Of a DNA stretch of 39,846 nucleotides, positions 3,338 through 27,406 are shown piece by piece (positions within the stretch are counted from its first letter, which is position 1; each line of letters opens with the position of its first letter). Location of the stretch: NCBI GenBank assembly GCA_034189135.1, contig JAXHVO010000005.1, positions 1 through 39,846 on the forward strand, given 5' to 3'. Below the pieces are notes generated by a model. The model was not told where the DNA came from. It searched no databases and saw only the letters and a program-made list of their open reading frames with translations. This DNA is from Thermodesulfobacteriota bacterium. Its GTDB lineage: Bacteria > Desulfobacterota > Desulfobacteria > Desulfobacterales > JAUWMJ01. A program made the position numbers and the translations under genes.

Positions 3338-3766
3338 TTATGCGTCGTCATGCATTTTTTGTGCTGTTTTATTTCTCTTTTGGTGATACATCAGCGCGGC
3401 CACGATCTTGTGCAGCTGGTGCGCATTGCACCAGCTCGCCGCATCGATGCCGAACATATTGCGAGCAATCGCGTCGGCATAACCTCGTTTCAGGCCCAGG
3501 TCCGCCAGGATCGCATCCACCTTTCCCAGCAGCCGGTCTTTGGAGCTGACCGGGCCTACTGCTTGCTTTCTTCTGCCTTTCGCCTTTTGTCTTTTAAACC
3601 CCAACTTGTAAAAATGCTTTATCACCAGGTTAAACTTGGCGGCATTCAGCTCCTTGGAAGATGCCACCCCCACACCTGCCAGCATGTCCCGGTATTCCGT
3701 TTCTGACATTCCGATCTTTGCCTTGGCCACATGGATGAGCGCTTTTTTTTTATTGCTGATCGGCAT
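3338..3766 (-). CDS. gemA: GemA-type regulatory protein (Mu gp16 / DUF1018)
   Basis: 142 residues beginning with a basic stretch, then I-H-V-A-K-A-K-I-G-M-S-E-T-E-Y-R and M-L-A-G-V-G-V-A-S-S-K-E-L, the signature start of the Mu gp16 (DUF1018) family. The central helix 'KFNLVIKHFYKLGFK' is also typical. In Mu, GemA/Mor affect host gene expression and DNA topology. It overlaps the upstream 181-aa gene by 17 nt. Confidence 0.8.
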   Translation of the reverse strand: MPISNKKKALIHVAKAKIGMSETEYRDMLAGVGVASSKELNAAKFNLVIKHFYKLGFKRQKAKGRRKQAVGPVSSKDRLLGKVDAILADLGLKRGYADAIARNMFGIDAASWCNAHQLHKIVAALMYHQKRNKTAQKMHDDA

Positions 3767-4295
3767 CTTCCGATATCTCCACCACCGCCATCCTGGCCTC
3801 CAGGGCCAGGGTCACCACCTTGTCTATGGCGTCCAGGGCTTTTTTCTTTTCCGCCCTGATCCGGCGCAGCTTTTCCGCCTTTTCCTCATTTTTCGGCATA
3901 TCCACCGGATCTTGAATCATCAGGTAAATCCCGTTTTTATTTTTACGCACAATCCCCCGCCGCACCAGCATCTGCAGCCACTCTTTGACGTATGATTTTT
4001 CCGCTCCGGCCATTTCAATGAGGTCGTCCACGGTCACCTTGCGGCGGTCCCGCAACACCCGCCACATCACCTCCTGAAGCTGAGGCTTTTGTTTTTTGCC
4101 TTTATAGATATAGGCACCCTTTTTTAACGGTTCTATTTCACCGGAACGCTTCAAATCCAGAATCGTTCTGTACAGCTTCCGTTTTTCCGCATCCGATACC
4201 ATGTCGAGCTCGATGGCAATTTCCTGTATCCAGATTTCCCGCCCTTTGCGATCCTGCATAATTTTTCTGACTTTACCTGCAAAAGTTTCTTTCAT
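3750..4295 (-). CDS. phage early protein with winged-helix repeats (181 aa)
   Basis: The N-terminal part (about 1-70) has the layout of a winged helix: a helix, E-I-A-I-E-L-D-M-V-S-D, a second helix and a basic strand pair ending K-K-G-A-Y-I-Y-K-G. A second copy may follow (about 75-130, V-T-V-D-D-L-I-E-M-A-G-A ... R-K-N-K-N-G-I-Y). The C-terminus is helical. Tandem winged helices suggest a DNA-binding phage regulator. It starts with an ATGA overlap with the 72-aa gene. No named family recognised. Confidence 0.6.
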   Translation of the reverse strand: MKETFAGKVRKIMQDRKGREIWIQEIAIELDMVSDAEKRKLYRTILDLKRSGEIEPLKKGAYIYKGKKQKPQLQEVMWRVLRDRRKVTVDDLIEMAGAEKSYVKEWLQMLVRRGIVRKNKNGIYLMIQDPVDMPKNEEKAEKLRRIRAEKKKALDAIDKVVTLALEARMAVVEISEDADQQ

Positions 4296-4510
4296 GCTTC
4301 ACCCAAACCCAGACCCAGATATTTCACCGCTTCATCGAGCGCCTCTTCGTACCCGCAGCCGATGCGCTGGTATAGGGCCGCCTGCATATGTTTGGGCAGC
4401 CTTTTGTAGCAGTCCCAACAAAACGATTTACCAGGCTTTTTATAGTAGCCGCACAGGCACTCGTTGCTCTGTAGCTCCTGCCAGTAAAACTTTTTATCCG
4501 ATACTTTCAT
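4292..4510 (-). CDS. small zinc-binding phage protein (72 aa)
   Basis: A 72-residue protein with C-L-C-G-Y-Y-K-K-P-G-K-S-F-C-W-D-C, a compact CxC...CxxC zinc site, followed by a helical region. It sits between the MuB-like ATPase and the winged-helix gene with 4-nt spacing on one side and an ATGA overlap on the other. Function unknown. Confidence 0.6.
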   Translation of the reverse strand: MKVSDKKFYWQELQSNECLCGYYKKPGKSFCWDCYKRLPKHMQAALYQRIGCGYEEALDEAVKYLGLGLGEA

Positions 4511-4513
4511 GTC

Positions 4514-5233
4514 TTATCCGCTTAACCCCGCCTTGACCGCCACCCTGGCAATAGGGTCCGTGGGGTCAGGGGTTCCGTTGGCATTGGCATATTGCACCAG
4601 GGCCAGCATGTCCCGTTTGACGATCCTGAAATCACCTTCCGACGCACCGTGAAAAATCTTTGCCACAGACATGGAAAGCTTCAAACCCGTCGAGTCTTTG
4701 GCATACAAAAGGATGTCGGATACATCGATGGGTCCAAATTCCATCCGCCTGAAAACTCTGGACCAGACACGCCGGTTTTGCCGCATATAACCCTTCAGTT
4801 CTTCTTCACCGATAAGTATAAACGGTGCGGTGCTCATGTCCGACAGATCCCGGACCAGATCGAGAAACGATCCGGGCAGTTTTTCAATTTCATCAATAAA
4901 CACCGGCATGGGGTTGGCGATCAGCCTGTCAACGATCTCCACAAAACACGGACCTTTTCTGGATGGAGCCGGATTGATTCGCAGTTCACGGCAAAGCGCC
5001 TTTAAGAACTCCAGCTCGCTGGTCCGCCAGATGGTGGCCACCCGAAGATAGATACACCCGGGGTTGTGCGCATGGTACCACTGGCTGGTCCGGGTTTTCC
5101 CGCGACCGGCCCGGCCGTATATCATACCCAGCCTACCTTCGCCCGCGCCCAGCTCCAGGCCGTCCATCATCACCTCAAAATTCCGCACATTTCGTGTTTT
5201 GATAAATACCGGCTTTACTTTTATTTCCTCCAT
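4514..5233 (-). CDS. MuB-like AAA+ ATPase, transposition activator
   Basis: 239 residues with a Walker A motif GRAGRGKT at residues 40-47 and a Walker B motif VFIDE at about 111-115. The family (Mu B, TniB, IstB-like) polymerises on DNA with ATP, selects target sites and activates the transposase. The protein is shorter than Mu B (312 aa) and lacks an obvious N-terminal helix-turn-helix appendage. It overlaps the transposase gene by 13 nt, so the pair is co-translated, as in Mu. Confidence 0.88.
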   Translation of the reverse strand: MEEIKVKPVFIKTRNVRNFEVMMDGLELGAGEGRLGMIYGRAGRGKTRTSQWYHAHNPGCIYLRVATIWRTSELEFLKALCRELRINPAPSRKGPCFVEIVDRLIANPMPVFIDEIEKLPGSFLDLVRDLSDMSTAPFILIGEEELKGYMRQNRRVWSRVFRRMEFGPIDVSDILLYAKDSTGLKLSMSVAKIFHGASEGDFRIVKRDMLALVQYANANGTPDPTDPIARVAVKAGLSG

Positions 5234-7476
5234 ACGTTTATTCCTTCCCTTTCATCCTCCTCGTTCTCCAACTGCCACACCATCATGGTGCGTGCCCGGT
5301 GCTCTTCGAAGCGCTCCATGTACATTTTATATTCACCGGTCTGCTCGTAATAGGTCATGAAAGCTCGATGCTCTTTGGGAATCAGGATATTCCGGGTTTC
5401 CAGCTCGATTAGTTTTTCATACCGGTCGATTTCGTTCATTTTCGGCAGCTCCTGGAATATCATGGCGGTCTCGTCGATGGATTCCGGGATATAATCGTCT
5501 TTCGGCTCCTCGGCGGGCATGTCCTTGTTCAGTTCGACCAGCTCATCATACTTGCGCTGGATCTCCTTTTTCTCGGCCTCTGTCAGCTTTCCGGACAGGT
5601 CGATCTTCTTAACTTCAGCCTTCAGCCCTCCACCTTCGACCTGTCCCTCGATTCCTATTTCAGCCAGCCTGCGCCGGTGTTCCGGAATAACCTCATTTTC
5701 CAGAAACGCCCGGGCGGTGACGTCGGCTTGTTTTTTCTGGTGTTCTTTGTATTTAATGTGTTTGACCAGCCTGGCCTGGTCTTCTTCGTTGCCCAGGACT
5801 GTGGCGGCAGGATGAACTTTTTCCACCGGCCTGGCTTCACAGATGAAATCGCCATTGCCGTCAAACACATATATGGCTGATTTGTCCTGCAGATCGTAAC
5901 GTATGGTCACCTTGTGTTTGCGCCCGTAAAGGGCGGGATCATAATAATTCTGACCGAACAGCCGGATGCCGTTTCTCCGGATGGTGCGAACCTCTATACT
6001 CATCATGAGATATTGCAGTTCGGCCGGATTGACGCCGTCGCCCTTACCTTCCAAAAAAAGATCGAGTGGAGACCGGCCTTTCAAGTGCCCTTTTTGGGGT
6101 CTTTGCGCATAGGCGTCAAACCAGGCCGCGATAGCCATGTGTGCCTGCTCTAAGGTGATACATCTGCCGCCGGTCAGTTTGTCATATACTTTGCGATGCA
6201 GTTTTTCGCCGCGCAGCATCCGGGGCGGTTTTTTATCGATGGATGTGCCGGTATAGGTGGGGCACCAGCGTTCAAGTTCGGCAAAACTGCCGAAAAACCT
6301 TTCCACGGTTTTGCTTTGTCCGTGATACGGCCAGGCAAAGATCGTTTTGATGTCCAGGCGCTCGAAAAGCCCTGTAAAATTTTCCTGATCGAAATCGACA
6401 CCTTTGAAAAACCGGGCTTTAAATGCTTTCCCGTTATCCAAATAGGCCACCTTGGGATATTTCCCCAGGCGCAGGATCGCCCGGCGAAGAGCCGACGCGA
6501 TGGCCTGGGTATTCTCCGTGGGCATGATTTCCCATCCCAAAGGAAAGTTGGATTTCATGTCCTTCCACAGGATCAGCATCATTCTTTTAGGCTTACAGGG
6601 GGGCCAGGGGTTGATGATTTCGAAGTTGAGCACGTGGCCGTCCGCCACCAGGATGTCACCCACGTTGATCAGGCTGTAATCCCGCTCGATATAGTAGGCG
6701 CACTTATCATTCCACGCCTTGGCTCCCTGGCGGGAAAACACCCAGATATGATAGTTGTGCGATTTCCAGTACATCAGCCAGCGCCGGTAGGTGGCATCCG
6801 AATAACCGTCGCGGATATTTTTGTTTTCCATCATCCACCGGGCCTGGCGGATGGCTTCCGATATTTTGGGCCGGTTGGGTTGCAAGGCGCAGCGCAATAA
6901 AATATTTTCCTGGTCTTCGGTTAGACTCTGGCCGCGATGGCAAAACCCGCGTCCATCGGCCAGTTTGAGAGTGTCCCCGCTGTGGCGCATGGTTCGCTTC
7001 CAGCCTTCGACGGTTTTCCAGCTCACCCGGCCAAGCTCTTGATACAGTTTCGGGTAGGCGAGCCCGCTGTTATAGGCACGGATAAAATCCGTCCTGGCTT
7101 TGCTCTTGTTTCCCCAGGCGGATTTTTTCAGCGCCCGGACATACAGCCTAAGCAGGTCGGCCTTTGCCAGGGCATTGTTGATCTGCGCCTGGCAAAGGTC
7201 GTGCAGCCTCCCGGTAGGGACCTGTTGCACCGCTTCCGGAACCCTACAGCCTTGCGGGATGGTGATCTGTTTGGCCTGTTTTTCGATTTGTGCTTTATCG
7301 TATAGGATGCGGATTTCTTCAGGGAGTTTTGCGATGATGAATTCCTTGCGTTTTCCCCCACGGCCGTTGATAGATTTATAACTCCAATTTTGCTTTTTAG
7401 CTGCTATTTGTATCCAGCGAACGCTTTTACAGGTAACCTCCGAAAGTTCCATAGCTGTAACTGTATTGCCGTTCAT
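5221..7476 (-). CDS. MuA-type DDE transposase
   Basis: 751 residues, close to Mu A (663) plus an extended C-terminus. The N-terminus has a winged-helix Mu DNA-binding domain (V-T-C-K-S-V-R-W-I-Q...), followed by Ibeta/gamma-like helices. The catalytic core shows the DDE residues D279 (L-V-A-D-G-H), D347 (A-Y-L-D-N-G-K) and E392 (T-V-E-R-F-F-G), the spacing expected of Mu A. The C-terminal region (about 640-751) is acidic and helical and should contact MuB. It catalyses strand transfer and replicative transposition of the prophage. The gene appears intact. Confidence 0.95.
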   Translation of the reverse strand: MNGNTVTAMELSEVTCKSVRWIQIAAKKQNWSYKSINGRGGKRKEFIIAKLPEEIRILYDKAQIEKQAKQITIPQGCRVPEAVQQVPTGRLHDLCQAQINNALAKADLLRLYVRALKKSAWGNKSKARTDFIRAYNSGLAYPKLYQELGRVSWKTVEGWKRTMRHSGDTLKLADGRGFCHRGQSLTEDQENILLRCALQPNRPKISEAIRQARWMMENKNIRDGYSDATYRRWLMYWKSHNYHIWVFSRQGAKAWNDKCAYYIERDYSLINVGDILVADGHVLNFEIINPWPPCKPKRMMLILWKDMKSNFPLGWEIMPTENTQAIASALRRAILRLGKYPKVAYLDNGKAFKARFFKGVDFDQENFTGLFERLDIKTIFAWPYHGQSKTVERFFGSFAELERWCPTYTGTSIDKKPPRMLRGEKLHRKVYDKLTGGRCITLEQAHMAIAAWFDAYAQRPQKGHLKGRSPLDLFLEGKGDGVNPAELQYLMMSIEVRTIRRNGIRLFGQNYYDPALYGRKHKVTIRYDLQDKSAIYVFDGNGDFICEARPVEKVHPAATVLGNEEDQARLVKHIKYKEHQKKQADVTARAFLENEVIPEHRRRLAEIGIEGQVEGGGLKAEVKKIDLSGKLTEAEKKEIQRKYDELVELNKDMPAEEPKDDYIPESIDETAMIFQELPKMNEIDRYEKLIELETRNILIPKEHRAFMTYYEQTGEYKMYMERFEEHRARTMMVWQLENEEDEREGINVWRK

Positions 7477-8049: not shown

Positions 8050-8298
8050 TCAGGCGGCCTTGGATGCGACCTTGGATGTGCTTCGGTGTTTCGGCCCCAA
8101 ATAGTATTCCGGGAAGACTTCCGTTTTATCTTTACCGATCGACCGAGCCACCTCTCGCATCGCCTCGTCGGAGGTGGCCTTTTTATTGACCACCAGTGAA
8201 ATGAGCATCTCCGACTTGCCGAGCTTCTGAGCGATTGCCTTTTGTGTTATTTTGTTTATTTTTAAATCATTTTTAATTTCGTCGGGTGTCATACTCAT
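8050..8298 (-). CDS. Ner/Cro-like HTH regulator
   Basis: An 82-residue protein with a clear helix-turn-helix: T-Q-K-A-I-A-Q-K-L-G-K-S-E-M-L-I-S-L-V-V. It is the first gene of the leftward early operon and diverges from the repressor gene at 8388, the same layout as Mu ner versus c. Ner turns down early and repressor transcription. The first ATG (8298) is preceded immediately by GAGG; the ATG two codons later (8292) has better spacing, so the protein may start there. Confidence 0.75.
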   Translation of the reverse strand: MSMTPDEIKNDLKINKITQKAIAQKLGKSEMLISLVVNKKATSDEAMREVARSIGKDKTEVFPEYYLGPKHRSTSKVASKAA

Positions 8299-8387: not shown

Positions 8388-8909
8388 ATGTCGCAAAAAA
8401 ATATTTCTAATAAGGAAATTGGCCAGAGAATAAATAAAATACGAACATCGCTAAATTTATCTCAATCCTTATTTGCCAAGTCTTTAGGTGTGACGCAGGG
8501 ATATATTAGCTGTATTGAAAAGGCTGAGAAAGATCCATCGATGACACTTTTGATACTTATTACTAAGCAATATAATATTACTAAGAAATGGCTAATAACC
8601 GGTGAAGGTGAAATGATCCAAGAAAGGGATGTGGAGTGTGACGATCCGAAGATCTCGAAGCTTTTGAAGAAGGTAAGGAAGGTGCTCAAAAGTGGCCACA
8701 AGGTGACGCAAGAAGCCCTGGAGGTTAGCATCCGCTATTTTTCTCAAGCCATAGACGATCTGGAACTTCTACAGGAAACAAAAAAACGCCAGAAAAATAT
8801 GGAATCAAGAATGGCGTCGCTGGAAACGAGGATAAAGAAATCTGAAGACATCAGAAAGGAAGACCCTCCGGAACGGCAGGAAGAGCTTTTAAAACTAAGA
8901 ACCGGATAA
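8388..8909 (+). CDS. prophage c-type repressor, XRE-family HTH
   Basis: 173 residues. The N-terminal XRE-type helix-turn-helix is clear (L-S-Q-S-L-F-A-K-S-L-G-V-T-Q-G-Y-I-S-C-I near 25-45), followed by a linker and a C-terminal coiled coil (about 120-165) that would dimerise the protein. It is divergent from the ner-like gene and should keep the prophage silent. No good Shine-Dalgarno is visible before the ATG, so translation may be weak or leaderless. Its AT-rich composition differs from the early operon. Confidence 0.85.
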   Translation: MSQKNISNKEIGQRINKIRTSLNLSQSLFAKSLGVTQGYISCIEKAEKDPSMTLLILITKQYNITKKWLITGEGEMIQERDVECDDPKISKLLKKVRKVLKSGHKVTQEALEVSIRYFSQAIDDLELLQETKKRQKNMESRMASLETRIKKSEDIRKEDPPERQEELLKLRTG

Positions 8910-9599: not shown

Positions 9600-10418
9600 A
9601 TGTACACAAAATGTTCTAACAAACAGTGCGGACAGAAATATAAAATAAAATCCGAGATGATAGGATCAATGGGAAGGTGTAAAAAGTGTAATAATATCTT
9701 TAAAATAATTGAACTTCAGGCTGATCCGCCTCTTAAGAAAAAGCGAAGGTCAGCACTGGAAGTTATGGAGGAAAATATTATTAATATAAAACAAGAAGTT
9801 AGTAATTTTATTCCACGACTGAACACTTCTCTTGAGAAGAAGGAAAATGAAAGCGACACCAGGCTGCTTATTAATAAAATGCTGCAAAAAGTTCTGGGAT
9901 ATAGATTGGAAGATATTAAAACTGAGCAGAAAATAGAGGGACGCAGGGCTGATTATGTTCTATCAATAAAAGATAAAGATGTGATGGTTATTGAGGCAAA
10001 AAAAATTGGAATGCCTCTCAGGGAAAGACAGATATTTCAAGCAACCTCATATGGTGCCTATAGCGGAATTAAATGGTCTTTACTGACAAATGCTATTGTT
10101 TGGCAGCTTTATCATATATCAACAGAAGATAAAATTAAGGCAGACCTTGTTTTCACTATAGATCTGCGAGACGGCATTGATGATGATGAAGCAAAGTATT
10201 TTTATTTAATTTCAAAAGCCGGGTTGTCACGAAAAGATTTGCTGAAAAATCTTTGGCAAAAAATAAGTGCGCTCTGTTACGACAATATTATCGGTGCAAT
10301 CCTCACAGACGATGTAATTTCCAAAATTAGAACAACCTTATCAAAACAGACAGGTTGTAAAATAAATAATGATGAGATCAGAACCGAAATTGAAGAAAAC
10401 ATTTTCCAACTTACATAA
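9600..10418 (+). CDS. zinc-ribbon plus HsdR-N-like PD-(D/E)XK protein (272 aa)
   Basis: The ATG at 9600 is preceded by GGGAGG, so I start there rather than 36 nt upstream. An MJ0042-like zinc ribbon (C5, C10, C27, C30) is followed by a coiled linker and a domain resembling the N-terminal nuclease domain of type I restriction HsdR subunits. D118 (R-R-A-D-Y-V) and E132-x-K134 (V-I-E-A-K-K) match the PD-(D/E)XK core. HsdR proteins are far larger, so this is a stand-alone protein, not a remnant, and no helicase follows. It may cut or bind DNA. The stop codon lies in the R'' box of the attC at 10413, the usual cassette arrangement. Confidence 0.7.
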   Translation: MYTKCSNKQCGQKYKIKSEMIGSMGRCKKCNNIFKIIELQADPPLKKKRRSALEVMEENIINIKQEVSNFIPRLNTSLEKKENESDTRLLINKMLQKVLGYRLEDIKTEQKIEGRRADYVLSIKDKDVMVIEAKKIGMPLRERQIFQATSYGAYSGIKWSLLTNAIVWQLYHISTEDKIKADLVFTIDLRDGIDDDEAKYFYLISKAGLSRKDLLKNLWQKISALCYDNIIGAILTDDVISKIRTTLSKQTGCKINNDEIRTEIEENIFQLT

Positions 10419-10563: not shown

Positions 10564-10833
10564 ATGACAACATATATAGTCACATTCGAAGTGAATGACA
10601 CCGACAGAAGGGTGGAGCTCAAAGAAAAACTACAGAGTTATAAGAGTTATTGTCCAATCCATGATAATTGTTGGGCAATTATTACAGACCAAAAACCAGC
10701 GCAAATAATAGATTATCTTAAGGGAGGCTTGGTTGATCAGGACCGACTTTTTGTGGTTCGGTCAGGTACTCATGCTGCCTGGTGGAACACCTATGGTGAA
10801 AAGAATAGTGAGTGGTTGAAGGAGAATTTATAG
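10564..10833 (+). CDS. SinR/Cas2-like small protein (89 aa)
   Basis: An 89-residue protein: M-T-T-Y-I-V-T-F-E-V-N then a helix, a Y-C-P-I-H-D-N-C-W-A-I-I-T strand, a helix, and D-R-L-F-V-V-R-S-G-T-H-A-A-W. This beta-alpha-beta-beta-alpha-beta order matches the ferredoxin-like fold of proteins annotated 'SinR family' and distantly Cas2/VapD/GhoS. The conserved W-A-I-I-T and F-V-V-R pattern supports that group. It sits between two attC-like regions. Nuclease activity is possible in the superfamily but not shown here. Confidence 0.6.
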   Translation: MTTYIVTFEVNDTDRRVELKEKLQSYKSYCPIHDNCWAIITDQKPAQIIDYLKGGLVDQDRLFVVRSGTHAAWWNTYGEKNSEWLKENL

Positions 10834-11065
10834 GGTTGCGGGACGTTCCTTGATATATTGACAAGTCGGTTCGAGGCGTTCACTAGAAGTTTATAGCGGA
10901 GGTTCAAGACCTAAACAGGGTGCAGGTTATGCTGATTGTAAAGATTATTTACACCGCTTTCCTGGTATGGCAACTAAGTTTCTTTTTTGCCCTCCTGGAA
11001 AGCCTCTGGGAATCGCGAAAAAATAAAATACCTTAACTGAAATTCTCTCCCAGCGAATAATATCT
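10833..11065 (+). repeat. direct repeat copy 1: MBL tail plus small membrane ORF
   Basis: This segment is highly similar to 11943-12180, offset by 1110 nt. It begins with a fragment that, in frame, encodes the same ending as the metallo-beta-lactamase-like gene (G-C-G-T-F-L-D-I-L-T-S) without the rest of the gene, then carries the small membrane ORF at 10929. A unit of membrane protein, MBL-fold protein and small membrane protein seems to have been duplicated, with the 5' part of this copy lost. Confidence 0.75.
10929..11036 (+). CDS. one-helix small membrane protein, copy 1 (35 aa)
   Basis: M-L-I-V-K-I-I-Y-T-A-F-L-V-W then a hydrophobic run and S-L-W-E-S-R-K. A paralogue at 12039 keeps the same start and the SLWESRK end while the middle differs, and many nucleotide changes between copies are silent (tac/tat, acc/act). 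That pattern argues that the ORF is translated and selected. The remnant S-L-W-E-S-R-K coding end appears again near 13495. It is too short to assign a function; a membrane-active peptide or toxin-like protein is possible. Confidence 0.6.
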   Translation: MLIVKIIYTAFLVWQLSFFFALLESLWESRKNKIP

Positions 11066-11110: not shown

Positions 11111-11644
11111 ATGAAAGATATATTAGAAAAGCTCTCCTCTTACAACATATTCAACTATTTGTTTCCTGGGGTCCTATTTGCAGCAATGAGTGACATTATA
11201 CTAACCTCTAACTCGCTGTTATTAGATGATAATGTTGTCGGAGTTTTTTTTTATTACTTTTACGGAATTGTCATTAGCCGCGTAGGATCTCTTTTGATCG
11301 AGCCATTCTTGCGATGGGCACATATTATACACTTCGCACCTTATACCGATTTCATCACTGCTTCAAAACTTGACCACAAAATAGAGTTGTTGTCCGAATC
11401 AAATAATATGTACCGAACTTTGATCTCGGTTTTCTTCTGCTTGCTGCTTCTGAGTTTTTTTGAATATATTGAGCAAGAAATATCATTCTTATCCAACCAT
11501 TCTTTGATAATTGCTGTACTGGTACTACTTATTCTATTTGCTTTATCATACCGAAAGCAGACTGCATACCTCAAATCAAGAATAATGCAAGTGAATGAGA
11601 GTAAAAACACCAGTAACGGAAACGATGAGGAGGCAGAACGATGA
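11111..11644 (+). CDS. membrane protein paired with MBL-fold gene (177 aa)
   Basis: 177 residues with four likely membrane segments: about 14-33, 42-60, 100-118 and 123-142, separated by a soluble loop (about 62-98) rich in charged residues. The C-terminal tail is basic then acidic. The stop overlaps the start of the next gene (ATGA), so the pair should be made together. I do not recognise a named family; the tight pair of a membrane protein with an MBL-fold enzyme suggests a two-gene accessory or defence system. That is inference. Confidence 0.65.
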   Translation: MKDILEKLSSYNIFNYLFPGVLFAAMSDIILTSNSLLLDDNVVGVFFYYFYGIVISRVGSLLIEPFLRWAHIIHFAPYTDFITASKLDHKIELLSESNNMYRTLISVFFCLLLLSFFEYIEQEISFLSNHSLIIAVLVLLILFALSYRKQTAYLKSRIMQVNESKNTSNGNDEEAER

Positions 11645-12006
11645 AAGTAACTATTCATGACGTTGGACATGGTGCATGTGCGAGTTTAATTCACCAGAAT
11701 GGCAACGTCATGCTGTGGGACTGCGGCCGCCGAGATGATTATCGACCTTCCGATTTTCTGCCGTCGATAGGGGTTTCGAAAGTTGATATTTTTTTCGTCA
11801 CTAACTACGACGAGGATCACATTAGCGACCTCCCCAACTTGAGAGATAAAATACGTCTCAGGTCTTTAGCCAGAAATAAGAGCATTTCAGCCGAGCAGCT
11901 AAGATCGTTGAAACTTCAAAGTGGTCCGATCAGCACAGCGATGGGTTGCGGGACGCTCCTTGATATATTGACAAGTCAGTTCGAGGTGTTCATTAGAAGT
12001 TCATAG
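11641..12006 (+). pseudogene. truncated metallo-beta-lactamase-fold protein (121 aa)
   Basis: The N-terminus (V-T-I-H-D-V-G-H-G-A-C-A-S-L-I) and N-Y-D-E-D-H-I-S-D-L-P-N match MBL-fold hydrolases of the ComEC/Rec2-like type: the DEDHISD segment corresponds to the HxHxDH metal motif with the first His changed to Asp. Such domains usually span 200 or more residues, but this one ends at 121, where the sequence enters the direct repeat starting at 11943. The later metal ligands are missing. It is likely a gene truncated by recombination; a short functional form cannot be excluded. Ribosome binding site GAGGAGG is excellent. Confidence 0.65.
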
Positions 12007-12190
12007 CGGAGGTTGGGGACCTAAACAGGGTACAGGTTATGCTGATTGTAAAGATTATTTATACTGCTTTTGTGGTTTGGATGCTATGTGTCCTTTTCGT
12101 CTTCCTGGGCAGCCTCTGGGAATCACGAAAAATTAGAATGCTTTTGCTGGAATTCCATCGTAGCGAATCAATATCTAATGTTAACCATTA
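11943..12190 (+). repeat. direct repeat copy 2: MBL tail plus small membrane ORF
   Basis: This copy matches 10833-11065 and contains the last 20 codons of the truncated MBL-fold gene and the small membrane ORF at 12039. Similarity decays after about 12130. A third trace, only the tail of the small ORF (about 13495-13520, GGGAATCACGAAAAGATTAA), lies upstream of the 66-aa gene. Confidence 0.7.
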
Positions 12191-12191
12191 G
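12039..12191 (+). CDS. one-helix small membrane protein, copy 2 (50 aa)
   Basis: M-L-I-V-K-I-I-Y-T-A-F-V-V-W, a hydrophobic helix to residue 26, S-L-W-E-S-R-K and a longer C-terminal tail of 19 residues that copy 1 lacks. The helix residues differ from copy 1 but keep hydrophobicity, and both flanking motifs are conserved, so the pair looks like diverged functional paralogues. The gene lies 33 nt after the truncated MBL-fold gene. Confidence 0.55.
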   Translation: MLIVKIIYTAFVVWMLCVLFVFLGSLWESRKIRMLLLEFHRSESISNVNH

Positions 12192-12286
12192 TTCCGTAAA
12201 TGGGCAATGTGAAATATATATTATTTTAGAGGATAAGATTGACAGAATGCATCATCCCTGATAGAGTTTTTGAAAATTAAGTATTA

Positions 12287-12393
12287 ATTTCTCGAAAAGG
12301 CAAATCCGGGGGGACCCGGATACGCAAAGCCCTTGAGCCTGAAACACCGGTTATATAGTTCGGTGCACAGGCAGTCAGGCTGCCGAAGGAAAT
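12287..12393 (+). ncRNA. cyclic-di-GMP-I (GEMM-I) riboswitch
   Basis: The aptamer has the GEMM-I core: AGGCAAA, a hairpin TCCGGG-GGGA-CCCGGA with a GNRA tetraloop, then TACGCAAAGCC, a second arm from GAGCCTGAAAC to the GGCAGTCAGGCTGCC hairpin, and a closing P1 helix (ATTTCTCG with CGAAGGAAAT). The order and spacing match c-di-GMP-I aptamers such as Vc2. It is followed by a strong terminator (12401-12441), so c-di-GMP would control read-through into the 119-aa gene at 12486 and perhaps the genes after it. Confidence 0.88.
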
Positions 12394-12400
12394 AAATTAG

Positions 12401-12441
12401 AGGCTGTTTCGTTTCTTTTGGCGGAGCAGCTTTTTTATTTT
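12401..12441 (+). terminator. riboswitch expression-platform terminator
   Basis: AGGCTGTTTC (12401-12410) pairs with GGAGCAGCTT (12423-12432) through 10 bp including wobbles, followed by TTTTATTTT. It starts 8 nt after the GEMM-I aptamer. Whether ligand favours or disrupts it cannot be told from sequence alone. Confidence 0.75.
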
Positions 12442-12485
12442 AAGCGGCTGATCCGCCTCAACCACTATGTGTCCGGTAAAATAAA

Positions 12486-12845
12486 ATGCCTAAGCTGAAA
12501 TTCTTTCACCATAAATCAATATTTGATCTTAATCGCCTGTTAGGAAAAATTAAGCTTAAAACCTTTACAAATATCATCGATTCAGAAACCCGGCTGGTCG
12601 TTTCCATTATTGATAACGGACCGGATTATGATGATGGCTACTCTATTTCAATTACAACCCCGAGATATCCGGATGGAAAAGATGGGGTGCTGATTAAAGA
12701 TAACGATCAACAGTTAATCGATCTAAAAGTATTTATTGACGATTTCATTAAGTCAAACAGAGATCAGAATTATAAGCTTCTTTTTGCAAGATATCTTGAA
12801 GATTTGGCTAAAATTATACGAAAAACTATTATTAAGGTGGTCTAA
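12486..12845 (+). CDS. hypothetical protein downstream of GEMM-I riboswitch (119 aa)
   Basis: 119 residues, alternating strands (R-L-V-V-S-I-I-D-N-G-P-D-Y-D-D-G) and a C-terminal helix with lysines and a final K-V-V. No family recognised. The Shine-Dalgarno before the ATG is poor. The first codons lie in a short sequence (CTNAACTGAAATTCTNNC-like) shared with about 11031 and 15813, so the 5' end may have been joined by recombination. It is the first gene downstream of the c-di-GMP riboswitch, hence its likely target. Confidence 0.5.
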   Translation: MPKLKFFHHKSIFDLNRLLGKIKLKTFTNIIDSETRLVVSIIDNGPDYDDGYSISITTPRYPDGKDGVLIKDNDQQLIDLKVFIDDFIKSNRDQNYKLLFARYLEDLAKIIRKTIIKVV

Positions 12846-12895
12846 ATATGCCTGAAAATAAACTACCTTGATCGCCCCAAAAAGGAGGTGTATAA

Positions 12896-13228
12896 ATGAA
12901 AAGAATGGCAACTCTCACATTAATCGGTGTTTCTGGTAAAAAATATACATTCGATGTTTATCCGTATGGCACAATATTTGAGGCCATTGGCGCGGTTTAT
13001 TATATATCCAGACGAACAGAAAAAGCTGATGGCACCGGCTCCCATGATCAAATATATATAGGCGAAACAGAAGATTTATCTGAAAGGTTTGATAATCACC
13101 ACAAAAAAACTTGCTTTAAAATGTACAGTGCGAATTGCATTAACATCTATGAAGAGTCTGATGAAGGAAAAAGACCCAACATAGAAAAAGATCTCATAGA
13201 TGCATACAATCCCCCTTGTAATGGGTAA
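12896..13228 (+). CDS. GIY-YIG domain nuclease-like protein (110 aa)
   Basis: A compact GIY-YIG domain: A-V-Y-Y-I at 33-37, Y-I-G-E-T at 54-58, R64, H68-H69, E97 and N105. The catalytic residues of the family (Tyr, Tyr, Arg, Glu, Asn) all have a counterpart, so cleavage activity is plausible. It is preceded by an almost perfect AGGAGGTG ribosome binding site. Stand-alone GIY-YIG proteins of this size occur among mobile gene cargo; target unknown. Confidence 0.75.
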   Translation: MKRMATLTLIGVSGKKYTFDVYPYGTIFEAIGAVYYISRRTEKADGTGSHDQIYIGETEDLSERFDNHHKKTCFKMYSANCINIYEESDEGKRPNIEKDLIDAYNPPCNG

Positions 13229-13252
13229 ACATAACAAAGGAAATCTATTAAT

Positions 13253-13483
13253 ATGAAGCATCGCCTTGAATTTGATTTTTATGAAACTAAAGATGATCGC
13301 AAATATGCCTTTTTTTATAATCTTGATGGAAATGTTGCCTGGGCAGTAGGATTTCCACCTCCACTGATTCCAAAACTTGGCGTTGGCAAAGCAGGCCCTG
13401 AAGTAAAAGCTGATTCTCAAGAAGATGCACGCCAAAAATTAATCAAAGCTATCGAATCCGGAAATTATTTAAATGAACCATAG
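13253..13483 (+). CDS. hypothetical protein (76 aa)
   Basis: A 76-residue protein with F-D-F-Y-E-T-K-D-D and P-P-P-L-I-P-K-L-G-V-G-K, followed by a helix. No family recognised. AAGGAAA lies before the start. It is 24 nt after the GIY-YIG gene, so the two may be co-transcribed and possibly form a nuclease-partner pair, but immunity-type features are not visible. Confidence 0.5.
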   Translation: MKHRLEFDFYETKDDRKYAFFYNLDGNVAWAVGFPPPLIPKLGVGKAGPEVKADSQEDARQKLIKAIESGNYLNEP

Positions 13484-13532
13484 ACTACTGTAGAACCTGT
13501 GGGAATCACGAAAAGATTAAAATGGTGAAAAT

Positions 13533-14863: not shown

Positions 14864-15658
14864 ATGAAGAAAGATTTTCCCCTCTGCGATTTCTTTAATA
14901 ACAACGAAGCACTTCATTGTGCATCCTTGGTTATTACTCCAAATTTAACTGAGGATGACCGTGGGAGAAAAACTTTTTCACAGCCCTCCGAAGTGATTTC
15001 AAACGGGACTATCACATTCATAGAATATGGCGGAAAAACCTACGGCATCACTTGTTGGCACATAATCGAAATATTTCGTAATGCAGAAAATGAGCATGGC
15101 AAACATAGCCATACAATGAGAACTATGGTCAACGGATTCTATGTTATCATGGATCGATTTGTCAGGCCGTCACCGGAATTTGGTCAACCACAAATAGATA
15201 TTGCTATCCGAGAAATCAACCCCGAGCACATTAAAAAAATCGGCAAAGCCCCAATTAAATTAGAGTCCCTTCCAGATATGCCGGATGAGTTACACCATGC
15301 TATCGCAATTGGATTTCCCACTAAGTTAAAGCATAAAAAGCAAGAAAATGAAGCCTTTCATAGAATTTTAATGCCACATGTATCGATTGTCGCAGAACTG
15401 AGTGATGGAAAACCAACTCAGCGATTTAACATGTTTAGTGAACTCGAAGAAAAACCTGATGTAATAGATTATAGCGGTGTTAGTGGCGGACCTATCTATT
15501 GGAGTACCGAGAAAGAGTATGGAATTATCGGAATAAATTACGAGAGTGCTGCTGGTTCAGAATTGTTTGGAGAAAAATCAATTCATGTATCAGGCGAATT
15601 AGCCACCCTGGACATAATCAAAAAATGGATAAAAGAATATCATGATAAAACTGCCTAA
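14864..15658 (+). CDS. trypsin-like serine protease cassette protein (264 aa)
   Basis: The protein has a chymotrypsin-fold triad: H66 in I-T-C-W-H-I, D112 in Q-I-D-I-A-I and S207 in S-G-V-S-G-G-P, with the expected order and spacing. There is no signal peptide, so it would act in the cytoplasm. The ATG follows AAGGTG, and the stop TAA lies within the R'' box GCCTAAC of attC-c. It is the sole gene of a cassette at 14819-15774. Stand-alone cytoplasmic trypsin-like proteases occur as effectors of defence systems, but nothing else here defines such a system. Target unknown. Confidence 0.8.
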   Translation: MKKDFPLCDFFNNNEALHCASLVITPNLTEDDRGRKTFSQPSEVISNGTITFIEYGGKTYGITCWHIIEIFRNAENEHGKHSHTMRTMVNGFYVIMDRFVRPSPEFGQPQIDIAIREINPEHIKKIGKAPIKLESLPDMPDELHHAIAIGFPTKLKHKKQENEAFHRILMPHVSIVAELSDGKPTQRFNMFSELEEKPDVIDYSGVSGGPIYWSTEKEYGIIGINYESAAGSELFGEKSIHVSGELATLDIIKKWIKEYHDKTA

Positions 15659-24205: not shown

Positions 24206-27200
24206 TCATGAAAGCTTTGGGGATTTTTCCTCTCTTGTTTGCCCAAATGCTTTCATGGCTCGGTTCATGAGGTCAAGATAGTTTTTATCCGTATTATGTA
24301 GCAGGTTAACGGTGGTAAAGGAAAGTGTGATAGCCGCATCGTCTATTGTCGCCAGCCTTTCGTTTAACAACTGCTCTAAGCGGTGCCAGACCGTGTGTGC
24401 CTTTTGCACTGTAGCTTGTGTAATGAGCAACGCAAAGGTTTGGTTATCCAGTCTGCAGAGGGTGTCACATCTTCTTATCTCCCTGGTAAGGGTGAGGGCA
24501 AGTACTTTTAAAACCCGATCCGTGGCATCATAATCAGGAGCAGCAGCCGTATCTTTAAAGTCAATGCTCATCAGGCAAAGCGTGATGTCCTCATGATAGC
24601 GTAAAGCTCTACTGGTTTCTACGGCCAGGATTTTCATAAACCCTTTTTTGGTGTACAACCCCGTCAGATCGTCTACCAGACTTTCACTTGAAAAGCAGTC
24701 AGTCACATCTTCCAGGCGGTCGCACAACCGGATCATAAGATTGAAAAGAAATTTCTGCGCAGTCGGTGGGTACAGCCATTGCAACCGTTGTATCATCTTC
24801 CAGTTGATTTGTAATAATTCACTGTCTCTATTGGCCGTTACCGTTGCTGAGCGCGGGGCACTGCGTAAAAGTCCCATCTCACCCACCATATCACCAATGT
24901 AAAGTTTGGTAATCAGTTTTTGAATACCATGCGTCTGGGCCTGCCCCTTGTCCTTATTGTATTCCACCACTTTCAATTCGCCGGAGATGACAACGTACAT
25001 GATATCGCTTTGATCGCCTTGCTGAAACACAACCTGGCCGGCTTCAAATCGTTTAAGAGAACCGGCCATGACAATATAATGAACCTGGGTACGTGACAAC
25101 CCTCTGAAAAGTTGTATGCCCTTTTCCGGTGCCATTCCCAGTTTCAACCGCACCAAATCCCACAAGGTTACCAGTTCGAAATGGAGCATCAAAGAGGGCA
25201 GCAGGATCAGATCTGCAATCAGAGCGGAAAACATGGTAATCACCATCATGACGCCGAAAATTGCGGTGGGTTTGAATCCCGAAAGAGTTAAAATGGAAAA
25301 ACCGATGCTAATGGAAAGCGTTGTAGCGACAATCGGTCGCCCCATGTGCATGATGGTTGTTCTCAGCGCCCGTTTTTCATCAAGATCCTTTTTAAACTCT
25401 CGATTGTATCTAACCAGGTAGTGAATGGTATCGTCCACTGCCAGACCGATGGCGATGCTTGCTATCAGGCTGGTCACTATTGACAGTTCAACTCCGAACC
25501 AGCCCATGATTCCGAAGTTGATGATAATGGGGAAAAGATTCGGCACAATGGCAATAAACCCGACTTTGCTTGACAAAAAAAGTATGAACATGATTCCGAA
25601 AACAAGAACCATGGTAATGGCGAGACTCTTGACCTGACCGGAGGTCAGCTGGTGGCTGCTCTCGGAAATAACGATTCCAAGCCCGGTCACATCCCATACT
25701 ATATCTTTGGAAAAATTATTTTTCACATAATCTAGAATCCTTGCACGGGTTTGCAGGAAGTCCTGTGAACTGGAAATATGCGTTAACAGCATAATGTTGG
25801 TTTGGGAAAAGTCAGGTTTCATAAACCTCACCAGCATGTCCTCCCCGAGCATCATCCGGTAACTGTTGATTAGCATCCTGACTTCAAAGCCTTCTGTGGG
25901 TAGAGTGTAATACTTGGGCTCGTACCGATTGGAGGCATAGTTGACAAGTTGCATGTAATCGGCAAATGATATGGTTTTATCCACCCCCGGAAGGGTATCA
26001 ATAAATTTCTGCAGACGTGCTATATCGGCAACATGTTCAGGATCTTCAAAATAATCTTCCCGGTCTCCCTGCATCGATACGTTAATGGGAAAGCTGCCGG
26101 AAAGATCCCGGTAAATGTCATGAAAGTTTCGGCTGACCGGAATATTTTCTTTGAAATAGTCCACCGGGTTGGTCTCAACTTGAATCTGGAAAATTCCCAT
26201 CAGGCATATCAGGGTGGTAAAGCCAAAGATCGGTAAGGTAACGCGTTGATGGTGCAAGTCCAAACGGACAATCCAGGCGAGCATTCGATCCAAAAATCCG
26301 GCTTTTTCAATACGTTTCCTGTTTTTGCGCAAGGGCATAAGAGCCATGACTGCCGGAAGAAGAATAAGCAGCACAACCAGCAAGCTGAATAAGCCCAGGC
26401 AGGAAAAAACGGCAAATTCCCTTATGGTTGTAATTTTATTGATCAAGAGAGACCCAAGGCCGATGGCCGTGGTAGCCACGGCCAGGATGGTGGGAAAAGT
26501 CGCCGTGGCAAATGTTGCCCTTGCTGCTCCTTTGGGGGATTCTGCCACTTTTACCTGAATTAAGTATTCGGAAACAATGTGCAGGCAATAGGCCGTCCCC
26601 ACAGCGATGAGAAAAACCGGTACAATAAGGGTCAACATTGACAGTGGAATGCGGGTCAAGGCCATGCATCCGAAGGTCCAGGTCAGTGCAAATATAACAC
26701 AAACCAGCGGTAGAAGGAGGTGCAAAAGATTGCGATAAAGACATAACAGCACGACTGCAATGAGAAGAAAGGTGATCGGAGGCAGGTGGAAAAAATCTTT
26801 CTCCGTCAACCGGGCCAAAGCCTGGGAAACCAGTGGCATCCCGATCTGATACAAAGCAAGATCCTCAGCGGCATCGGCGATCATCTTTTTCACATCCCTG
26901 ATCACCATTTCCGCATCAGCTTCTTGCGCCAGCACAAGCGTGATAGCGGTTGATCTATGATCGATGGAAAATAAATTTTTCTGGAACAGCTTGACAGCAT
27001 CCATTACAGCGGCGAATTTTTCAAGGCTTTCCTTACCGGACATATTCACTGATTTGCGGATTCCGGGAAGGCTGATGACACGTCGCACTCCCTTAATTTT
27101 GGCAGCGGTCTCAGCCAACTCCTCGATCTTTTTGAAAGTGACCGGGTCAAAAATATTATTACTTTTGACCACCACCCGTATAATCTCGTCTGATCCGAAA

Positions 27201-27406
27201 AGGTCCTTGAATGTCTGATAACGATGGGTGGCAGGCAGGTCTTCGATGACAAGGTCATAAATCGATGTTTTAAAAGAAAGCCGTGGAATCTGATAGGCAA
27301 ATAGAGAAGTGATGGCAGTAATCACCAAAATAACAAGCCAGGGCCGCTGCAGTATCTTATCCAGCATGGCGCTGTAAGATAGATTTTGCAAAAAGTATTT
27401 ACTCAT
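24206..27406 (-). CDS. RND-family exporter fused to cNMP-binding and degenerate GGDEF domains (1066 aa)
   Basis: Twelve membrane helices form two MMPL-like halves (about 20-370 and 390-760) with large periplasmic loops. A cyclic-nucleotide-binding domain follows (about 770-890, with G-E-M-G-L-L-R-S-A-P-R-S-A-T-V-T-A as phosphate-binding cassette), then a GGDEF-family domain (about 910-1055) starting D-D-L-T-G-L-Y. The catalytic GGDEF is replaced by L-D-N-Q-T-F, so diguanylate cyclase activity is unlikely. Transport of lipids or hopanoid-like molecules is typical of RND (MMPL/HpnN) proteins of this shape. The fusion suggests transport or signalling gated by a cyclic nucleotide. No clear ribosome binding site. 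Confidence 0.8.
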   Translation of the reverse strand: MSKYFLQNLSYSAMLDKILQRPWLVILVITAITSLFAYQIPRLSFKTSIYDLVIEDLPATHRYQTFKDLFGSDEIIRVVVKSNNIFDPVTFKKIEELAETAAKIKGVRRVISLPGIRKSVNMSGKESLEKFAAVMDAVKLFQKNLFSIDHRSTAITLVLAQEADAEMVIRDVKKMIADAAEDLALYQIGMPLVSQALARLTEKDFFHLPPITFLLIAVVLLCLYRNLLHLLLPLVCVIFALTWTFGCMALTRIPLSMLTLIVPVFLIAVGTAYCLHIVSEYLIQVKVAESPKGAARATFATATFPTILAVATTAIGLGSLLINKITTIREFAVFSCLGLFSLLVVLLILLPAVMALMPLRKNRKRIEKAGFLDRMLAWIVRLDLHHQRVTLPIFGFTTLICLMGIFQIQVETNPVDYFKENIPVSRNFHDIYRDLSGSFPINVSMQGDREDYFEDPEHVADIARLQKFIDTLPGVDKTISFADYMQLVNYASNRYEPKYYTLPTEGFEVRMLINSYRMMLGEDMLVRFMKPDFSQTNIMLLTHISSSQDFLQTRARILDYVKNNFSKDIVWDVTGLGIVISESSHQLTSGQVKSLAITMVLVFGIMFILFLSSKVGFIAIVPNLFPIIINFGIMGWFGVELSIVTSLIASIAIGLAVDDTIHYLVRYNREFKKDLDEKRALRTTIMHMGRPIVATTLSISIGFSILTLSGFKPTAIFGVMMVITMFSALIADLILLPSLMLHFELVTLWDLVRLKLGMAPEKGIQLFRGLSRTQVHYIVMAGSLKRFEAGQVVFQQGDQSDIMYVVISGELKVVEYNKDKGQAQTHGIQKLITKLYIGDMVGEMGLLRSAPRSATVTANRDSELLQINWKMIQRLQWLYPPTAQKFLFNLMIRLCDRLEDVTDCFSSESLVDDLTGLYTKKGFMKILAVETSRALRYHEDITLCLMSIDFKDTAAAPDYDATDRVLKVLALTLTREIRRCDTLCRLDNQTFALLITQATVQKAHTVWHRLEQLLNERLATIDDAAITLSFTTVNLLHNTDKNYLDLMNRAMKAFGQTREEKSPKLS

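Follow-up and report, generated by a model that had tools for sequence, protein, structure and literature searches.

A predicted c-di-GMP-I riboswitch beside Mu-like phage genes, with a dedicated promoter and terminator

The stretch of DNA analysed here, called the window throughout, is 39,846 nucleotides long and makes up the whole of contig C5 in a genome of 140 contigs. Near its beginning, a group of phage genes is read from the minus strand. They encode a Mu Gam-like protein (1471-1983; PF07352, 2e-15), GemA (3338-3766; PF06252, 1.9e-20), a MuB-like ATPase (4514-5233; AAA_22 and phrog_296, 7.6e-40), a MuA-like transposase (5221-7476; Mu-transpos_C and phrog_310, 3.9e-104) and a Ner-like HTH regulator (8050-8298; phrog_769, 6.5e-6, with HTH_35 under its cut-off). 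A CI-like HTH repressor of the same element was recognised by profile matches on the plus strand (8388-8909). A MuA-like transposase and a MuB-like ATPase together with a divergent Ner-like regulator and repressor, the set by which a Mu-like element was recognised, are all present in the window. Further along the contig that carries the switch described below, positions 24206-27406 encode a protein of 1066 aa that carries a GGDEF domain close to the C-terminus.

The initial annotation of this DNA had described a complete GEMM-I aptamer with a GNRA hairpin, followed by a good terminator, and each of these features was recovered. When the window was searched with Rfam cmscan at the gathering threshold, positions 12289-12387 of the plus strand matched the c-di-GMP-I (GEMM-I) model RF01051 over its complete length (model positions 1-87), with 58.9 bits where 35 are required and an E-value of 3.7e-9. 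Model R1, a covariance model made here from 26 aptamers, gave 67.6 bits, a score that is partly circular in that the window aptamer is one of the building sequences. The aptamer match, the fold and the alignment agree that P2 is closed by the GNRA loop GGGA (12311-12314). P1 is formed by the 5' strand ATTTCT (12287-12292), placed by the fold, and the 3' strand GGAAAT (12388-12393), placed by fold and alignment. The terminator is a stem-loop of 15 pairs (12399-12434) with a T-rich tail that reaches to about 12441; there are two terminator-like sites in 12150-12550, against a mean of 0.6 in shuffled sequences, and the second lies on the minus strand within P2. The region 12280-12450 folds with -67.5 kcal/mol (z -5.55), and an equally stable fold was obtained for 0 of 200 shuffles. 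A sigma-70-like promoter (TTGACA-N17-TAGAGT, 12239-12267, plus strand) is predicted 21 nt upstream of the aptamer and agrees with the consensus at 10 of 12 positions. The region holds two promoter-like sites against a shuffle mean of 1.3, which is weak when taken alone. Since the lone match hardly exceeds chance, support for this promoter comes from its conservation among the copies of the switch.

The switch is surrounded by cargo genes; the small genes of the module behind it and the two M48 genes before it are read from the plus strand. The 119-aa gene and the GIY-YIG gene that had been placed downstream are both there as open reading frames (12486-12845 and 12896-13228), although the start of the former is doubtful. 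No family was found for the 119-aa frame in Pfam, PHROGs or PADLOC, and the 110-aa GIY-YIG protein matches PF01541 with 22.1 bits, just below the cut-off of 22.6. A 76-aa frame (13253-13483), taken from the list of reading frames and the comparison of copies, is the third gene of this module. Two M48 genes stand upstream of the switch. They encode the candidate-defence protein PDC-M48A (11111-11644; 1.4e-60) and a shortened PDC-M48B protein of the metallo-beta-lactamase fold (11641-12006; 1e-19 over profile positions 1-108 of 270, with PF00753 below its cut-off). SduA is found among the cargo of a second contig, C113, and this further cargo of the two contigs looks defence-like. Defence-like as well is the protein encoded at 14864-15658 in the cargo region of the window, which matches LmuA weakly (2.6e-8). 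Additionally, an intergenic sequence of 226 nt is repeated between cargo genes (10833-11058 and 11943-12168, 84% alike). Its motifs occur at 11003, 12113 and 13496, and part of it is also found in C66 and C113 and, more weakly, in C9, C61 and C122. These repeats look like cassette junctions. An integron integrase lies near a contig end of the genome (G000:C95:18424-19356; TIGR02249, 423 bits), and it prompted the consideration of an integron reading for the repeats.

There are four aptamers in the genome, and all of them score above the cut-off. Besides the one in the window, they lie at C113:4365-4463, C66:6997-7095 and C92:16994-17082. Positions 12234-13530 of the window are 91% identical to C113 4310-5606, a match that spans the promoter, the aptamer, the terminator and the three genes behind it. 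C66 matches the window in two blocks (12198-12447 at 93% and 12435-13523 at 85%), which are split there by about 0.76 kb coding for a 164-aa protein directly after the terminator. These three contigs have the promoter, aptamer, terminator and GIY-YIG cargo module in common at 85-94% identity. Their outer genes, which we take for host genes, differ and include tRNA-Val and others on C5, a chemotaxis protein on C66 and a glycosyltransferase on C113, so that the shared part stands at different host loci. C92 is more distant, with 74% identity across 12214-12441.

In alignment A6, the -35 hexamer TTGACA is present in all four copies and the -10 hexamer TAGAGT in three, with TAAAGC in C66; accordingly placed sites are reported by the promoter scan for C113 and C92, and the scan misses the one in C66. 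An intrinsic terminator follows the aptamer in every copy. Its arms, GGCTGTTTCG and GGCGGAGCAGC, are identical in all four, and its loop differs among them, as does P3. The 5' strand of P1 is invariant in the four copies; the 3' strand reads AGAAAT in C66, a change that turns a U-G pair into U-A and keeps the pairing. The P2 loops of the phage copies are all of the GNRA type, namely GGGA in the window, GAAA in C113 and GGAA in C66.

The mobile setting that had been proposed for the switch is borne out by the transposase, MuB, GemA and Gam genes of the window and by the recurrence of the switch beside Mu-like genes on the two other contigs. C66 codes for a transposase (phrog_310, 2.6e-62), an AAA ATPase and HTH proteins, and its transposase is of a different type from that of the window. 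The transposase on C113 belongs to the C66 type (92%), and its residues 1-356 are all that lies on the contig. Promoter, riboswitch and terminator recur as one unit beside these genes. This recurrence is the reason to include the switch in the mobile unit, and it is probably carried inside the Mu-like element; all three contigs stop before the head and tail gene part would be reached.

The phage copies sit beside a repressor and ahead of the small cargo genes. In C66, the repressor stop codon (6918) is followed 28 nt on by the promoter (6946) and then by the aptamer (6997); in C113, the stop codon is at 4265, the promoter 50 nt on at 4315 and the aptamer at 4365. The terminator scan found no terminator between repressor and switch in either of them. 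The complete repressor gene of the window is of a different type and is 3.3 kb away from the switch. Directly before the riboswitch and joined to it, the window retains a remnant (12198-12238, plus strand) that consists of the last part of a repressor gene of the C66 type and the spacer behind it: window 12198-12447 aligns at 93% identity with L006 6904-7155 (C66), of which 6904-6918 are the last repressor codons. We read this junction as the product of recombination between elements.

The fourth switch, on C92, is chromosomal. It has pyrG on one side and, on the other, a gene that it precedes and whose secreted-looking product has a signal-like start and long repeats; the identification of pyrG and of the signal sequence, like the resemblance to surface proteins, comes from our reading of the sequence by eye. 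Its leader resembles the phage copies, with the same TTGACA and terminator arms and the -10 hexamer of C5 and C113. The simplest account would be that the unit passed between the chromosome and the phages, in either direction. The phage switch may have originated from the host leader, of which the phages would then have a copy.

The direction of control was approached by folding transcripts of increasing length. For RNAs that stop in the T-tract, the lowest-energy fold of all four copies contains P1 as well as the full terminator, so the ligand-bound aptamer should not block termination. Just before the 3' arm of the terminator, the best fold is without P1 in every copy, with margins over the P1 fold of 3.4 (C5), 0.5 (C66), 2.2 (C113) and 0.9 kcal/mol (C92). 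At this length, the probability of P1 is 0.01 in C5, 0.51 in C66, 0.06 in C113 and 0.07 in C92; in every copy this probability fluctuates from one transcript length to the next. The best fold at this point is an antiterminator in C5, C66 and C113; for C92, antiterminator and P1 are level, and the former lies 0.8 kcal/mol higher in energy than the best fold. In the window, the candidate antiterminator would be formed by the 5' strand CCGAAGGAAAT (12383-12393), which overlaps the 3' strand of P1, and the 3' strand GTTTCTTTTGG (12411-12421), which covers the terminator loop. This helix has 11 bp in C5 and C113, for which 68 and 102, respectively, of 5000 dinucleotide-shuffled sequences contained a helix at least as long. 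In C66 and C92 there are just 7 and 6 contiguous pairs, and shuffles with helices as long numbered 2215 and 3043 of 5000. The energy gap was matched or exceeded by shuffled tails in 265 (C5), 435 (C66), 404 (C113) and 361 (C92) of 500 cases. The antiterminator remains a candidate: of the two shuffle controls it passed one, and it is weak in half of the four copies.

Our leading guess from these folds is that the switch is OFF at high c-di-GMP and acts by termination. RNA polymerase would start at the dedicated promoter of the switch and, in C66 and C113, might also arrive from the repressor gene. With c-di-GMP bound, P1 would form, the terminator would fold and transcription of the cargo would end. 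With the ligand absent, the 3' strand of P1 would pair with the terminator loop, the terminator would be delayed and transcription would enter the cargo. The opposite direction, in which bound c-di-GMP prevents termination and the cargo is switched on, is unlikely but deserves to be weighed. There are precedents for it, at least in the excerpts of the sources used here: for Desulfobacca, the predicted direction of both the c-di-GMP and the cAMP-GMP switches is ON (PMC9481103), and cGAMP is thought to stabilise the antiterminator of a Geobacter switch, for which ON was inferred (PMC6456294). The energy-gap control, which does not favour the proposed antiterminator, also speaks for an ON switch. 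The same is true of the folds obtained when about 10 nt more, behind the T-tract, are included, in which C92 retains P1 in its best fold and C5, C66 and C113 lose it; the 3' strand of P1 then pairs behind the T-tract, a pairing that exists only in read-through RNA. Against an ON switch stands the coexistence of P1 and terminator in the T-tract transcripts, for which ON by simple competition between the two was dropped as the leading reading, and no structure in which bound P1 excludes the terminator stem was seen among the folds made.

The state of the cargo bears on whether the switch still controls anything. It may be a passenger relic, carried along with nothing useful left under its control in the window, and some of the changes behind it fit this description. 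The in-frame ATG that stands behind AGGAAA in C113 and C66 is AAG in the window, which deprives the 119-aa frame there of its likely start, and the C66 copy of this frame is interrupted by an in-frame TAA. The gene directly after the switch in C66, which has a DUF4124 match under the Pfam cut-off and whose product is secreted-looking, with a signal peptide read by eye, has no second copy elsewhere in the genome. The 3.3 kb between the window's switch and the complete repressor gene point the same way. Nevertheless, we regard a relic as unlikely: the aptamer, promoter and terminator are intact, and the differences between copies preserve the GNRA loop and the pairing of P1. For the GIY-YIG gene, dN stays below dS in all pairs (dN/dS values of 0.019/0.113 for window-C113, 0.117/0.445 for window-C66 and 0.117/0.392 for C113-C66). 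The corresponding values for the 119-aa frame between window and C113 are 0.075 and 0.288.

The likely ligand of the window switch is c-di-GMP. The host has 16 GGDEF matches, 13 of them above the cut-off (one of these passes only with its neighbours), and is therefore presumably able to make c-di-GMP. The position that decides ligand specificity, which we take to be the first base of GGCAAA, is G in all four copies. Many Geobacter GEMM-I riboswitches prefer 3',3'-cGAMP (PMC6456294, in part), but G at the specificity position goes with c-di-GMP and A with cAMP-GMP (PMC9481103, in part). The G of the window, if it is at that position, speaks against this other ligand, which is highly improbable.

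On balance, we give a little more than even credence to a functional-looking c-di-GMP-I switch with its own promoter and terminator, which is carried by Mu-like phages, has a chromosomal relative and is turned OFF by its ligand. A more far-reaching account is possible, albeit unlikely. According to it, a portable promoter-riboswitch-terminator unit was derived from the leader of a host surface protein and placed directly behind a phage repressor, where it would be fed by repressor transcripts as well as by its own promoter; in a lysogen, the motile or sessile state of the host would switch the cargo on this flank of the phage, and the unit would have crossed from one Mu-like lineage to another, the two having different transposases. 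Should the unit work, the Mu-like phages of this host tune their cargo to its c-di-GMP by means of what appears to be a host regulatory leader. They would then be another type of phage, beside the C. difficile prophages, in which prophage genes answer to a second messenger of attachment, and whether lysogeny cargo follows the biofilm state would become directly testable.

The distribution of the arrangement beyond this genome was followed from the transposase, the cargo and the aptamer. At ten loci with related transposases (L051-L054, L267 and L276-L280), the aptamer model found 0 of 10 at an E-value of 0.01, and the idea that the switch is widespread in Mu-like phages is unsupported. By tblastn, repressor-like matches were seen at L052, L053, L276, L277 (partial, E 0.006), L278 and L279, a Ner-like match alone at L267, and neither repressor nor Ner at L051, L054 and L280. 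The viral Mu-like contigs L053 and L054 carry RNA elements of other kinds, a type II hammerhead ribozyme and a C4 antisense RNA (9609-9675 and 10925-11011 in L053; 4976-5042 and 8465-8549 in L054). For 194 genomes of the order, the lists of transposases and aptamers were compared by eye; among the matches listed, two transposase-aptamer pairs less than 20 kb apart on one contig were present outside the genome studied. The pair on G016:C120 was rejected, its transposase being IS-like from a reading of the locus. That on G012:C1 combines, among the matches listed, a weak transposase match (1.2e-13, in a 385-aa frame) with an aptamer 17 kb away. Relatives of the GIY-YIG protein (E 1e-8) occur in 4 of 394 other genomes searched and on 0 viral contigs. 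No convincing aptamer was found near these four relatives in stretches of 10-19.5 kb (best 13.5 bits, E 0.036), and GIY-YIG alone of 14 query proteins matches at their loci.

GEMM-I aptamers are not unusual on viral contigs. A strict pattern gave 90 stretches. Scoring covered 80 of them and yielded matches with an E-value of 0.001 or better at 71 loci, which lie on 69 contigs. A loose pattern gave at least 120 stretches; among the 120 listed, the model confirms two better than 1e-10 (L108 and L128), and six more of those listed, with E-values of 0.001-0.01, were taken as chance. No relatives of either transposase were detected at the 71 loci (tblastn, 1e-4, up to 15 kb per contig). At six viral loci (L242, L256, L238, L228, L209 and L128), GEMM-I is followed by a small receiver-domain-like protein, the domain being named by eye. 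Separately, the Rfam model shows four to six GEMM-I aptamers arrayed in tandem at L037 (G011:C109, 690-1215), L028 (G018:C75), L033 (G021:C1), G018:C79:7082-7405 and G040:C102:7438-7794. The six cores of L037 are 79-105 nt apart and lie ahead of a secreted-looking protein; model R1 reports only 4, 3 and 3 aptamers for L037, L028 and L033. Such arrays leave little room for separate expression platforms. The part used here of a survey counts 347 doublets and 12 triplets and does not mention longer series (PMC9481103).

In comparison with known systems, the window switch resembles other members of the RF01051 class in its full-length match above the gathering score, the GNRA loop of P2 and the terminator downstream. 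It differs from them in standing beside Mu-like transposition genes and in that its promoter and terminator closely resemble the ones at a chromosomal gene of the same host. Among phages, the C66 type of transposase is about 33% identical to that of JBD25-like Pseudomonas phages over about 91%; the region of the riboswitch, by contrast, is without a blastn match in the phage collection at E-values up to 1. A search of the open-licence literature found no report of a riboswitch in a Mu-like prophage or transposable phage. Prophage GEMM-I switches as such are already in print. The C. difficile prophages phiCD630-1 and phiCD630-2 carry the GEMM-I switches Cdi1_4 and Cdi1_5, with their own promoter and a premature terminator (PMC3649979 and PMC7699646, in the excerpts used here). 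The downstream transcript was reported to be lower at high c-di-GMP, and another report cited there found it insensitive (PMC7699646, in part). Like the window switch, they are, in the same excerpts, prophage-borne, duplicated (there in two prophages) and equipped with a promoter of their own and a terminator. They differ in their surroundings: the C. difficile switch is followed by an antitoxin RNA, within a region that matches a phage lysis module, whereas the switch described here comes after the repressor in Mu-like elements, with small protein genes behind it. The RNA class is ordinary, and the Mu-like setting is unusual.
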